A stretch of DNA of 64,000 bases. Origin: Closterium sp. NIES-65 (Eukaryota; Streptophyta; Zygnematophyceae; Desmidiales; Closteriaceae). The notes beneath the pieces were generated by a model. The model was not told where the DNA came from, made no database searches, and worked only from the letters and a program-made list of their open reading frames with translations. Where the stretch lies: assembly GCA_948144175.1 (NCBI GenBank), contig CANXME010000812.1, positions 248,001 to 312,000 of the forward strand. Direction: 5' to 3'. A program made the position numbers and the translations under genes. Of this stretch, positions 34,913 through 45,575 are shown piece by piece (the first letter of the stretch is position 1; each line of letters starts with the position of its first letter).

Positions 34913-35003
34913 AATGGTCCTTGTATTGATATAGACGGCAAGTACAAGCATGCAAGTCATAGAGGCATAGGTTACATGCATGCAAAGCACAAGCACCGCA
35001 GAT

Positions 35004-38000
35004 CTACAACTCCACCAGGGGCTCAATAACCGCAAAGCAGTCCCCAAGGTGCAACTCGTCCCCAATTCCCCCTACAGGCGGGTTTTCTACTGCCGCAGCC
35101 TCTCCAAGCTTGAGCAGGAGACCCACAGATTGGGCCCTTTGCAGGGCCACCGACCAGCGTTGCCTGAACTGGTGCAGGAACTTTGCAGCATAGAACAATT
35201 TGGAGTCGGCGTTGAAGTGGTGCCGAGCTGCAGTGTCCGCCAAGAGCTTCAGGAAGAGTGGCACCTCTGCGCAGGGGCAGCCGTAGGTGTCTACCACAAG
35301 TGGGAAGAACTTCACTGTCTCTGGCAGGGTGGCGTAGTGCTGGATCTTCTTGTCCGCTTCCTTCCTTGCCGCCCAGCCCCTGCCTTTCTGCGCCTCTGGA
35401 TCCCTAGTGCTAATAGGGTCAGTAATGGTGATGTCGCATACGTAGACTGCCCCACTGCTTCTGCCCGTCATTGTAAAATCTGCCGTCTGTTCCTCAATGG
35501 GGCAGTGCGCCGATGACTCGCTGTGGACAATGAACCCCGCGTCTTGGGCCATGCTAATGCAGGCATCGCGCACCTTGTTATGGGTGTTGATGCGATGCTT
35601 GCCCGTGCCGCAGCGGAGTAGGTGGTTAGGGAGGCGGGGGTCCGTGATGGCGGTGTGATCAGCGCAGTCACACTTCTTTGGTGTGGAGAAGGGGAGGGCC
35701 AGCCGGAAACGCACGGCATTAGAGAAGTGGGTGGGCCCTATCCTCCTGTTGGCCGCAATGGGGATAGCGGTCAGCCGATCCCCGGTCCCGTAGCCAGTGA
35801 GTGAGTATATCCGCTGCGTGTGTCTGCACAGAGGTTTCAGCGCCATCCGTCGAGTCTCCATGACCTGTACGGCATATCTGCTTCCATGTACCCTCAGTGC
35901 CAATGCGTGCTGGAGCCTAATGTCTGATCGCTCCAGCTGCTCCTTCTCCAGGATCTCCCGTGCATCCTCTGGTAAAGCCGCTTCGCACTCCGATAGCCAT
36001 GCGTGGAGAGGCGTGGCGACGTCTACAGGCAGCAGCATGTGATCCCGAGCCTGCGTCAAGGCGCCATCAGGGGCGCCGTCTAGTGATGCCAGGAAAAGCG
36101 CGGCTTGTGTGAAGCTCGCTGCGTACCCGTATACTCCCTCGATTAGGGGGTCGGTAATGCCTATCCCTCCCAAGGACGGCGGCACTGAGGCCTGCGCCCA
36201 GACACGTGCTTGTTCAGTGCGGCAGGTGGAGACGCGGATGCCGCATGCTATCAGTAGCGCTGCAAGCAGATCAGTGCCCCACCGACTCCAGGTGTCGTGA
36301 GGCAGGAGGTGGAGCGGTGTCGTTCTGGTGAGGTATGCCACCCGCCTCGAGATACAGCGGGTGAGCAATAGCGATGCTACCTGGGGGTCGGCTTTCTCGA
36401 GGAGTGGCAAAGGATTTGCCATATCCTGTAACTGACCCGACAAGAACTGTGACGCCCCGCTGTCAGGGCCCACAAAGCTTCCCAGCAAGCGCACGCCGTC
36501 TTGGGAAAATGGAACTCCTTGCGGCAGCTGATCCTTCACTGCTGCTTCCCTGCTCCAGGCTGCGCATTTCTGCGCGTTGTGTCTTAGCCCCAGGTGCGCC
36601 AACCTCTCGGTGAAGTGATAAAATGCGGCTACAGTGTCCGCCGCCTCCCCAAGGAATGTGACATCGTCGGCGTAAGCTAGACAAAGCACCTGTGGATATG
36701 CCTCAGCAGTGTCGCGAAGTGCTGGGTGTATTCCTGCCGCGAATAGTAACGGACCGAGTGGGTCCCTTTGACGCACGCCCCGTTCGCTGGTCAGTGGGTC
36801 ACATTCGAAATTTGCGTCGAGGTGCAACTTGGACGGGTTACCATAGGTCAGTTTCACCAGCGGCACTAGTGGCGATAGCCCGGGTTCTTGTAACGCCGTC
36901 GCGATAGCTTGTCGGGATATGCTGTTGAATGCATTCGAGATGTCGGTCTGCAGCACCAGGCTGTTGGGTAGCTTGTCCAGATACGCCCGCGCCACGTGGA
37001 TAACTGCCTCGGCCCCACCTGGCACAGCCACTCCATACTGTTGAGGCAGGAAATAGTTACGTGCAGCATCGCCCGTGGCTGCGAGGGCTGCCTTGGCTGT
37101 CAGCCGAGTGATGCACTCGCCAATCGCGATTGGTCAAGCCCCCCCACCAGGTTTGGCCAGGGCTATGAGTCGCGAGGCTGTCAGTAGGTCCGCCACCGGT
37201 GCTGGTAGGTTGCCCCCCAAAATGGTGTTTATCAATGCGTGCAGATGGGTGCTGACTCGCCCGTTCGTGATTGCCGCGTCGCGCATGTGCTCGAAAGTTG
37301 TTCCCGAAGGGCCGGCACCGACCCCATTCTCACACCTCCCCAGTAGTTTGGCGAAGTCAGCGTGGGAGATGGATAATTTTGACTCGGACGTGGGTGGCCA
37401 CGTCGTTTGTCCTGATTCGGCTAGCGGATGTTTCCGTCGGAGCTCCTCCAGGATTTCTGGGGTTGGTTTGCAGACTGGCGTTGACTCTAATGCCAACACT
37501 GCTCAGCGCAAGCTACCCCGTTTTGCCAGCCTCTCGGCTCTGCTGATGACCCCGGTAGCGTCGGGCTGATGACGTGGTGGCGCGGGTGAGCTGACCGCTT
37601 CAATCGCGTCCTTGTACAGTTGGTCCCACTCGCCACACTGGAAGGCTCGGAGCTGGGCCTTGATCTGGGGCCAGTTCGGTTTTCGTGGCGAGTTTTGGCG
37701 AAGTGTCAGGCGTGGTAGAAAGAGGAGGCGCCAACCTGCCTCTGATTCCGGGTTTCGTGACAGGTGGAGTAACGGGGTCAGTAGCGTCAGCGAAAACAAC
37801 TGGCACAGGTTTGGCGGTAACCGCCGTACCAGAGATGGTTGCCGACTGTCGCAGAGGGCAGGGATATCCCAGTTCGCGATGTCTGCGAACCAGTCTGCCC
37901 GCACCGCCAGCTCCTCTGGCATGAAATAGCGAGGGAGATTTGGATTTTCCCGCACCGCCGTCGTGTCTGCCGCGGCCCAATGTCGCCTGGTGCGGCCCGT

Positions 38001-38495
38001 CCTTTCTCGTGATGGTGTGGGTGGAATGTCGCCCGTACGATCGGCATCGGACGGTCCACCAGCGGTGTCCATTTGCTCGCCAAGGGACTGTCTTGGTCTT
38101 GCTCCCGTCCTCCTCCCATTCTCCCTTACTCCTTCCTCTCCTTCCGTCCCTTCATCTTCGCTCGAGGGCATGGGCTCCTCCCTATAAGAGGGGTCTGTTC
38201 CCTCTTCGTCATTATCTAACCTGTTTAAAGCCCTTCGTGCCTCTGACTGATAGCCGTTCTCCGGCCCTCCTCCCTGTCCGCTAGCAACTTCGCGCCCTCC
38301 GCCTCGCGCTCCTCGTTCTCGCGATGGTGATTGCTGGTGTGACCGATTACTCGCCAATGCGCGCTGGCGCTGCGCCGGTTGTGTTCGAAAAGCCGTCGGC
38401 TGCCTCCGAAGCGGGGACCATGGCGACGGGTTCCCCGCCGCCGTCTGCTCCGAAGCCCGCGACAGTAGACGCTGAAAAGACTCCTCCCCTCGTAT
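35004..38495 (-). pseudogene. NL1 reverse transcriptase / restriction-like endonuclease
   Basis: One frame, conserved with NL2 from IRGEESFQ (38495) to the C-terminus PLVEL, broken only by TGA at 37503-37505 (CGA in NL2) and TGA at 37132-37134 (CGG in NL2). RT motifs: QTDISNAFNSISR (motif A), GVRQRDPLGPLLFA (motif B, Arg for the usual Gly), CLAYADDVTFLG (motif C). A CDCADHTAI/HLLRC cysteine-histidine cluster and an endonuclease segment with ADFTM and VCDITITDP follow. The architecture is that of R2/R4/NeSL-type elements, which nick a chosen target and prime cDNA from it. No ATG opens the N-terminus. Confidence 0.88.
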
Positions 38496-43922: not shown

Positions 43923-45256
43923 CGTCGTTTCAAGAGGCCTTGGCGTCTCTTCCTATCGAGCCGCCTGTTCCCCTCGCGGCGGCGTTTGATGTATCTGCTC
44001 CGTCAGTCGTTCCTTGAGCTGCCGACCCTGCTGTTCCGTCGGCAGCCGCCGCGCGGGCGGTTGTTGCTGGCGGCGTGACTGACCAGCCGGAGGGGTCCGC
44101 CACCACTGACGTCCAGGGCCAGCCGGCGCTTCCCGCCTCTCTGGCTCCCCCGTCTGCGCCGCCTCCGACGCTGGCGCCTCCTCTGCTTGTGCAGGCGGGA
44201 TCTGCTCCTGCGCTGGCCGTGGCTGTTCCCTCTGCGCCTCCCGCGATTGCGCCCTCTGCACCGTCTGCGGGGGCTCCTCTCGTGCCGCCTGCTGATGCTC
44301 CCGTTGCCCAGCCGGGTGTTGCTCCGCCTGCTCCGCCCGAGGCGGGTCCGTCTGCGCCGTCTGTGGCCGTTCCTGGTGCGCCACTGGTGGCGAATCCCTC
44401 TGCGCCGACCGCTCGGCGTCCGCAGTCTCCTGGCCGTCGTCAGCAGCGGCCGCAATCCCCAGCGCGTCAGGACGTACGCGCGACGTCCCGGCGCCGCCAC
44501 AATTCTCCGCGGCGCCGCGGTTCTCGGGCGAACTGGGCGGCGCAACGCGGCGACCGAGGCGGCTGGTGGGGGCCGCGTCAGCGGGATGGCGGCTGGGGGT
44601 CTGATCAGCCGGTGACGATGGCTGATCTGCAGCGCGCGGTGTCTGCTGCTGTGCGCGAGGAGCGGAACGGGCAGGCGAGCCAGAGCAACTCCCCGCGTGT
44701 TGCTCAGACCCCCGCGGCACCTCCTCCAGCAGCACCTCCTGCCCTGGCAGCCCCTCGTCCTCCTGCAAACGTTCCTCCTCCTCATGTCCCCGTGGCTGCG
44801 CATTATCCGTCCGTGCTGCCCGTTGATCCCGCTCCCCCATCCACAGGTGCGGCGTACTCGTTCTCAGCCCTACTGGGGCCTCAGCGTCCGGTCGCGGTTC
44901 CGGAGGTGACCCTTGGTCAGATCTGGCGCCTCTCGGAGGCGCTGCGGGTCGTGCATCTGGTGCAGGTGTATGGTCATGCCGCCCTGTCCCAGGGCGACTC
45001 ACTGGTGGGCGGCCCTCGGGACGATTGTTTCGCGGCAGCTGATCGCCTCGCCGAGCTGCTAGCGCCCGTGTTGGCTGCGCCCGCGCCGGGTGGGCTTGCG
45101 GGGGTCGGGCCCCTTGGTTCTGCTGTGCGTGGGCTGCGGCGGTTGTTGCATGCAGGGACTGGATCCGGGGCGATCGCCGCAGGCACGGTGTTGGTGCGTG
45201 AGTTGCATCGCACGCTGTCAGGGCTGCTTGCTGTGTTTGATGCGGATCAGGTCTAG
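43751..45256 (+). CDS. NL2 divergent ORF (one in-frame stop)
   Basis: Same start as in NL1 (MVIAGPTDYSPM), TGA at 44015, then open from 44018 to TAG at 45256 (an ATG at 44075 could also start it). Conserved with NL1: TSRRRHNSPRRRG (basic patch), PVTMADLQRAVSAAVREER, TLGQIWRLSEALR, AADRLAELLAPVLAA, VLVRELHRTLSGLLAVF. Middle part proline-rich. The stop lies beyond the RT overlap, so the true protein may begin downstream. Function unknown; the basic patch suggests nucleic acid binding. Confidence 0.7.
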
Positions 45257-45575
45257 CGTCCGCGTGCCCCGGGAGCTCACCGCGTGTAGATGCGGGCTCC
45301 TCTTGCTCCATGCTTCACCTAGGCTAGAGTGGTGTGTGCCATGCGTGTATGTGTGCCAATAGTTGCTTGTTTTGTGTGTTTCTTGCCACCCCTCACGCGC
45401 GGCCGAAGGCCGCGCTGTCGAGCGTCGGCCGGCGAAGGCGGCCGGCGCGAGACGCTCGGTCAGGAGAGAAACCCAACCAAAAACTGAATAATGAAGAGGC
45501 AACAAGGCCTGCTGAGGCCTTTATACTAGGACTAGGGAGGCTAGGGGAGGCTTGAGAGGCTAAGTCCCTAGGTGC
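45257..45575 (-). promoter_or_regulatory. NL2 5' terminal module
   Basis: It contains the same hairpin block as NL1 (first hairpin 45397-45415 identical; second 45426-45444 with one mismatch) and the minus-strand CTAGTATAAAG (45520-45525). Outside these blocks the two copies are poorly conserved, so the blocks are probably functional. Confidence 0.6.

Follow-up and report, generated by a model that had tools for sequence, protein, structure and literature searches.

A candidate antisense gene nested over an ORF1-like frame in an R2-group-like retrotransposon of Closterium sp. NIES-65

The plus-strand frame and its overlap with the reverse transcriptase

We examined a 64,000-nt stretch of the Closterium sp. 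NIES-65 genome (assembly GCA_948144175.1, contig CANXME010000812.1, positions 248,001 to 312,000 of the forward strand; hereafter the window, in whose coordinates all positions are given), in which three copies of one non-long terminal repeat (non-LTR) retrotransposon form an array between 34722 and 45672, with (CT)n tracts at 34722-34912, 40030-40041, 40229-40330, and 45576-45672 separating and bounding the copies. The two full-length copies, NL1 and NL2, are diverged, old copies of the same element, and in both of them a reverse transcriptase (RT) frame on the minus strand is accompanied by a long open reading frame (ORF) on the plus strand, the start of which overlaps that of the RT (Table 1). 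All of the evolutionary comparisons reported here are between these two copies.

Table 1. Coordinates of the features described in the array (aa, amino acids)
Feature	Position	Strand	Description and basis
NL1 plus ORF, 471 aa	38324..39739	+	intact; codon-position pattern, dN/dS 0.31, composition
NL2 plus frame	43751..45256	+	one TGA at 44015-44017; portion downstream of TGA listed as 44075-45256
Plus ORF start where it overlaps the RT 5′ part	38333..38453		RT-frame silent divergence suppressed
NL1 ORF1-like frame, 401 aa	38565..39770	-	in frame with RT; ends at TGA 38565-38567
NL2 ORF1-like frame, 452 aa	43953..45311	-	in frame with RT; ends at TAG 43953-43955
NL1 minus-frame block with motif GPGRQWWRTPP	38691..38750	-	NL2 counterpart near 44090-44130
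NL1 RT, three frame pieces	35007..38564 (35007-37133, 37137-37502, 37506-38564)	-	frameshifts; blastp of pieces vs NL2 RT
NL2 RT frame, stop-to-stop, 1172 codons	40434..43952	-	R2-like RT plus C-terminal endonuclease-like stretch
17-nt identical block GGCTCCTCCCTATAAGA	38173..38189	+	holds only plus-strand TATAAR of element (38183; NL2 43601)
Only RT-strand TATAAR (TATAAA)	39978..39988 (5′ coordinate 39984; NL2 45525)	-	conserved minus ATG lies 214 nt downstream in each copy
5′-leader double hairpin	39843..39912 (NL2 45382-45451)	-	UUCG in loops on RT-sense strand
NL1 full-length copy	34913..40029	- (RT sense = minus)	RT frameshifted, plus ORF intact; blastn NL1/NL2 homology reaching both ends; (CT)n either side
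Third copy, 3′ end only, 187 bp	40042..40228	-	5′-truncated; between (CT)6 and (CT)51 stretches
NL2 full-length copy	40331..45575	-	RT open

In NL1, the plus-strand product has a proline/alanine (P/A)-rich acidic N-terminal part, a basic SR/RG-like middle (isoelectric point 12), a MADLQ..REER segment, and a C-terminal portion of ~120 aa. The plus ATGs at 38324 and 38420 (43751 and 43847 in NL2) are all present in both copies. The NL2 plus ORF is not strictly intact, since its TGA interrupts the frame from the conserved ATG at 43751, and in this copy the plus ORF is either damaged or using another start. We observed that this TGA and the TAG of the NL2 minus frame lie less than 65 bp apart.

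When alignments were compared with those of shuffled sequences, the two plus proteins gave z = 37, and the products of the antisense ORFs gave z = 9.8. In a protein-guided alignment of 380 codons, the copies showed 128, 132, and 235 differences at plus codon positions 1, 2, and 3, respectively, with a nonsynonymous divergence (dN) of 0.47, a synonymous divergence (dS) of 1.49, and thus a dN/dS of 0.31. Because a protein-guided alignment favours the plus frame, we realigned the DNA in a frame-neutral manner, and over 38830-39736 found 75, 90, and 138 differences among 266 sites at each position (p = 2.2e-5). This main alignment excluded 20 out-of-register columns (81 in the crudest rerun), and four more runs of aligners all repeated the ordering of the positions, giving three different results, of which one equalled the main alignment. 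Divided into thirds, the frame-neutral alignment gave 18/35/52 (p = 3e-4), 29/31/39 (p = 0.43), and 28/24/47 (p = 0.009) differences. At 4-fold degenerate plus sites over 38819-39736, the copies differed in 69 of 109 cases (63%), and because this matches the main piece of the RT (186 of 307, or 61%; the N-terminal piece, which includes the overlap, gave 55 of 120, or 46%), the amino-acid constraint over this region lies on the plus frame and not on the minus frame. From these sequence comparisons, we conclude that the plus-strand ORF is a real conserved protein gene, predicted to be under purifying selection.

At E ≤ 1, Pfam and NCBIfam gave no match to the plus products or to those of the ORF1-like frame on the minus strand, nor did the Protein Data Bank (PDB) contain a chain matching the NL2 plus product. 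The plus product, basic and P/A-rich, probably either binds nucleic acids as a Gag/ORF1p-like helper or regulates the element. Scans for relatives of the plus-ORF alignment returned none from viral contigs (0; 84 pattern stretches), and scans for relatives of the RT alignment returned none from viral contigs (0; 211 stretches) or genome contigs (0; 97 stretches); these scans carry little weight, the patterns having been built from two copies and the contigs searched being of viral and prokaryotic origin.

Where the plus ORF begins, the RT frame shows an additional constraint. Across the RT, silent differences were found in 53% of the 829 codons that specify the same residue in both copies (of 1159 aligned). 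In windows of 30 such codons, the number of silent differences fell to 6 of 30 at 38453-38333, with a lowest window of 5 of 30 (permutation P = 0.008); the windows neighbouring this minimum held 8 and 10 of 30, and the next lowest region, at the RT C-terminus, held 11. The minimum of RT silent divergence thus coincides with the plus ORF start, and a 20-nt run identical between the copies spans the first plus ATG. RT third positions at 38324-38507 differed in 18 of 61 cases vs 508 of 955 in the RT pieces (p = 3e-4), a comparison in which the sets share ~11 codons and come from alignments made in different ways. Over the same overlap, differences at plus codon positions 1, 2, and 3 numbered 11, 18, and 7. 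We interpret the plus ORF start, where it overlaps the RT, as looking dual-coded.

These results bear on the initial annotation of this DNA, which had proposed a conserved gene lying head-to-head with, overlapping, and opposite the RT in both full-length copies of a non-LTR element. The coordinates, the codon patterns, and the dN/dS of the plus frame all agree with that proposal, and the codon pattern of a conserved protein, which it had put at about 20/17/41, recurs in our frame-neutral counts. Its further claim, that the pattern turns in favour of the RT frame within the overlap (about 8/10/5), holds as to direction, but at p = 0.07 the overlap codon pattern does not establish it alone.

Reading frames of the RT strand

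On the RT strand, an ORF1-like frame begins at a conserved ATG (39770 in NL1 and 45311 in NL2), and is separated from the RT, in either copy, by one stop. On the DNA shared with the plus ORF, this minus frame has 0 stops in 389 codons of NL1 and 432 codons of NL2. Synonymous shuffling of the plus codons leads one to expect 7.7 (NL1) and 5.9 (NL2) minus stops, or ~13.5 in total, and 8-11 after correction for the main stop-forming junction, YT/A (the slash marking the codon boundary), which occurred at 0.51-1.24 of expectation in nine other frames of the window. These control frames were seven other long ORFs and the NL2 and NL1 RTs, the plus and minus ORFs, their parts, and longer RT versions being excluded. 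The probability of 0 stops was 2e-5 when corrected by the mean control ratio (0.75) and 3.5e-4 when corrected by the lowest (0.51).

Part of the minus frame is also conserved as protein. Around the motif GPGRQWWRTPP, 14 aligned codons differ 1, 0, and 10 times at minus positions 1, 2, and 3, with 13 of 14 residues identical, and the longest word common to both minus proteins is 11 residues, vs 4 to 6 in 60 shuffles. From ~38790 down to the RT, changes follow the minus codons, with 31/27/50 differences over 107 codons; here the P/A-rich stretch at 38470-38830 was misplaced by the aligner, and the minus-guided alignments used in its place are by design biased toward the minus frame. In NL2 the RT frame reaches its first Met at codon 701, and NL1 has an earlier in-frame Met ~60 codons into ORF 37503-38357, which NL2 is without. 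The RT thus seems to need the ORF1-like frame for a start codon, and the element is probably not a plain two-ORF ambisense pair, its RT strand seeming to have an ORF1 too.

In agreement with an R2-type enzyme, the Pfam domain RVT_1 was detected in NL2 with E 2.9e-20 (aa 446-671 of ORF 40434-43922) and in an NL1 piece with E 1.8e-13, and the best solved relatives of the RT in the PDB were R2 proteins (E 1e-10; 8.5e-15 with a two-copy profile). Comparison of the copies gave RT dN/dS values of 0.085 (35004-37031) and 0.24 (37503-38357). At the RT C-terminus, CxC..HxxxC, D1005, D1020, and K1048-1049 are kept in both copies (motifs read by eye from the alignment), and this CxC..HxxxC / D..D..K stretch looks like a restriction-like endonuclease (RLE); a sequence search of 40434-41300 against the PDB gave no match. 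An apurinic endonuclease upstream of the RT was not found, Pfam at E ≤ 1 giving RVT_1 alone in NL2 ORF 40434-43922 and nothing in the minus ORF1 products. No LTRs were seen, and blastn self-comparisons gave no terminal repeats besides (CT)n. By its RT similarity, the absence of LTRs, and 5′ truncation of one copy, we classify the element as an R2-group-like (RLE-like) non-LTR retrotransposon.

Candidate signals, the array, and its surroundings

On each strand, either copy holds a single TATAAR, which is conserved between the copies and precedes a conserved ATG. On the plus strand it lies 141 nt (NL1) or 150 nt (NL2) upstream of the plus ATG, within the 17-nt identical block 135 nt upstream of the 20-nt run that spans this ATG, and this block is a candidate promoter of the plus gene, placed within the RT coding sequence. 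The double hairpin in the 5′ leader is nearly invariant, with identical runs of 50 and 19 nt, the former being the longest between the copies (the next is 21 nt). Its folding z-scores were -3.5 and -3.0 on the RT-sense strand and -3.9 and -2.8 on the opposite strand, and since these are similar, folding energy does not choose the strand. The double hairpin had no match in Rfam, and a search of 34000-46500 for Rfam-type RNA families yielded none that was credible, the sole match having an E of 0.53, below the family threshold, and lying partly in (GA)n.

We also observed a conserved 38-nt block at the end of the plus ORF (39722-39759 in NL1 and 45272-45309 in NL2) that reads CG/GTGAGC on the RT strand and is possibly a 5′ splice site or a 3′-end signal. 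We also considered, and by eye rejected, a splice from the minus-ATG exon to the TTTCAG immediately upstream of the RT, since in both copies the donor is in phase 1 and the acceptor in phase 0.

All three copies of the element have the same orientation, all three lie in (CT)n, and read on the minus strand every copy terminates in ...GGACCATTA(GA)n. As 3 of 3 copies share one orientation in (CT)n, the microsatellite strand may fix the direction of insertion. The third copy (40030-40229) is 74% identical to 34901-35094, and the C-terminal 29 aa of its RT are 86% identical to those of NL2. Its truncation lies toward the RT 5′ end, the outcome that would be expected if an RT-sense RNA had been copied by target-primed reverse transcription. 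A full copy directly adjoins this older truncated copy. Self-comparison found no copies beyond these three within the window.

The window has a G+C content of ~60% and is rich in genes of LTR elements (5 of the 7 ORFs tested encode an integrase, a Copia-type RT, or related domains). Immediately to the right of the array, at 45828-47138, are plus-strand frames for an integrase (rve) and a Copia-type RT (RVT_2), and plus-strand frames to its left (32473-34439) may be part of that same interrupted Copia-type element; 33122-33550 and 33555-33986 had no Pfam match. Long G+C-rich tandem arrays with periods of 16-31 were identified by Tandem Repeats Finder at 5538-6078, 14579-15188, 20538-21203, and 62453-62981.

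Probable coding on both strands, alternative accounts, and known systems

The reading that we prefer, with a probability of roughly 60%, is that of an R2-group-like element in which one strand carries an ORF1-like frame, a stop, and the RT, and the opposite strand a nested antisense gene. Such an element would use target-primed reverse transcription to enter (CT)n in a single orientation. On its RT strand, the ORF1-like frame would be followed by one stop codon and, without a change of frame, by the RT-endonuclease, the RT probably being produced by readthrough or reinitiation at the stop, which we infer to be the simplest route because the RT has no shared ATG of its own. The opposite strand would carry a second gene of ~470 codons, nested over ORF1 and overlapping the first RT codons, and probably expressed from its own TATA-box promoter inside the RT coding sequence. 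Both strands are most likely coding, with the long antisense gene nested over an ORF1 that is kept open but little constrained. We give somewhat less than even odds to the fuller proposal that ~1.2 kb is translated on both strands, such that an antisense gene under purifying selection, with its promoter inside the RT coding sequence, fully covers an RT-strand ORF1 on which selection acts mainly to keep it open and thereby give access to the RT.

Several observations weigh against this reading. There are two full copies only, their silent divergence is high (whole-gene dS 1.3-1.9), and neither is wholly intact, given the TGA in the NL2 plus frame, the frameshifts in the NL1 RT, and one stop in each minus frame; these two minus stops are moreover not at exactly aligned positions. 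The plus dN/dS exceeds that of both RT pieces, the codon pattern in the middle third of the plus ORF (39131-39430) is not significant and thus uninformative, and that of the overlap, as noted above, does not suffice by itself. The RT-strand TATAAA lies only 45-50 nt inside the 5′ end of the element, so that a full-length template would not result. As to the openness of the minus frame, YT/T junctions are also depleted in NL2, which may mean that base composition accounts for some of the stop depletion. If the minus frame is instead treated as the gene, openness of the plus frame is about as expected in NL2 (3 stops vs 3.2 expected) and only mildly raised in NL1 (1 stop vs 4.6 expected, P 0.03). 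Over most of the plus ORF, the minus frame is without amino-acid constraint (dN/dS 1.36). On this last point our results agree with the initial annotation, which had argued against the minus frame, but its account is incomplete: the frame is in register with the RT, open from a conserved ATG save for one stop, depleted of stops, and in possession of an 11-residue motif.

This lack of constraint would find an explanation if the RT messenger contained an intron holding the plus gene in antisense, a short first exon that carries the minus ATG being spliced to an acceptor just upstream of GPGRQWWRTPP and the minus frame across the plus ORF remaining untranslated. The block GGAGCTCACCG at 39722 and 45272 (84% identity over 38 nt) offers the donor CG/GTGAGC, which would place the intron start at 39730 in NL1 and 45280 in NL2; by eye, each copy shows AG acceptors of compatible phase, and plus-type constraint yields to minus-type constraint near 38760-38830. 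Such an intron, however, leaves the excess openness of the minus frame unexplained and the stop between the motif and the RT in place in both copies, and a spliced RNA that retrotransposed would lose the plus gene. We consider this account unlikely.

Less probable still is that the whole arrangement began as an element with the usual ORF1-ORF2 order, which underwent a 5′ inversion (twin priming) in an ancestor and remained mobile, its inverted ORF1 now forming the plus ORF. The geometry fits, and the plus product is basic and ORF1p-like in composition, but an ORF1-like frame is already present on the RT strand, the plus frame has been selected in its present orientation over a whole-gene dS of ~1.5, and its start overlaps RT codons in which silent change is suppressed; because of this selection and suppression, twin priming is at most an account of the origin of the gene. 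That the RT strand alone is coding, and the long plus ORF a by-product of a G+C-rich antisense composition, seems to us very improbable. In its favour are the long ORFs that high G+C produces on either strand, the openness of the minus frame and its register with the RT, and the alignment of the minus products, which likewise scores above that of shuffled sequences (z 9.8); the codon-position pattern, the protein alignment scores, and the silent-site suppression, however, all follow the plus frame.

We compared the preferred reading, an R2-group-like element with a nested antisense gene, with known systems. Kibi-type Tx1 elements have a (TC)n target, as here, and, unlike here, an apurinic-type endonuclease and the ordinary ORF order. 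Elements of the R2 group and other RLE-type families (R2, NeSL, R4, HERO, CRE, Utopia, and Togen) resemble ours in their R2-like RT, in the apparent C-terminal endonuclease with no apurinic endonuclease found, and in their insertion into repeats; according to the available part of PMC4640811, RLE-type elements often target repeats, microsatellites included, and Togen inserts in (TG)n. They are unlike ours in that no opposite-strand gene appears in them in that source, the main text of which has 0 occurrences of “antisense”, and in their zinc pattern, which is given as CCHC in the available part of PMC3636483 and is CxC in this element.

The available part of PMC8554170 describes ORF0 of LINE-1 as an antisense ORF of 71 aa, with an antisense promoter, in the 5′ UTR (untranslated region). 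The likeness lies in an antisense ORF expressed from an antisense promoter (here a candidate one) at the 5′ end of a non-LTR element, whereas here the ORF is 471 codons long, lies over an ORF1-like frame, and overlaps the RT start, and the candidate promoter is in the RT ORF. The plant LTR elements Retand, Grande, and RIRE2 have additional antisense ORFs between pol and the 3′ LTR, and these, together with retroviral HBZ-type genes, are similar to the plus gene in being conserved antisense accessory genes with possible nucleic-acid binding (PMC11963269, as far as its available text extends). The plant ORFs differ in belonging to LTR elements, in the position just given, whereas in our element no LTRs were seen and the ORF lies on the RT 5′ side.

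In keeping with the initial annotation, to which no described non-LTR family with a divergent, overlapping ORF pair was known, our literature search, which was partial in coverage, found no non-LTR element (RLE-type included) with a long conserved opposite-strand gene among the matches listed, LINE-1 ORF0 being the nearest. To our knowledge, the non-LTR elements known to date have a one-strand layout, from which a long conserved antisense gene, if true, would depart. Such a gene would have to travel within the RT-sense RNA template but rely on a separate promoter for its expression; the transcript, complementary to the messenger of ORF1 and the RT start, could serve as an inbuilt regulatory switch. 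The element would also be a natural test case for the origin and upkeep of overlapping antisense genes.

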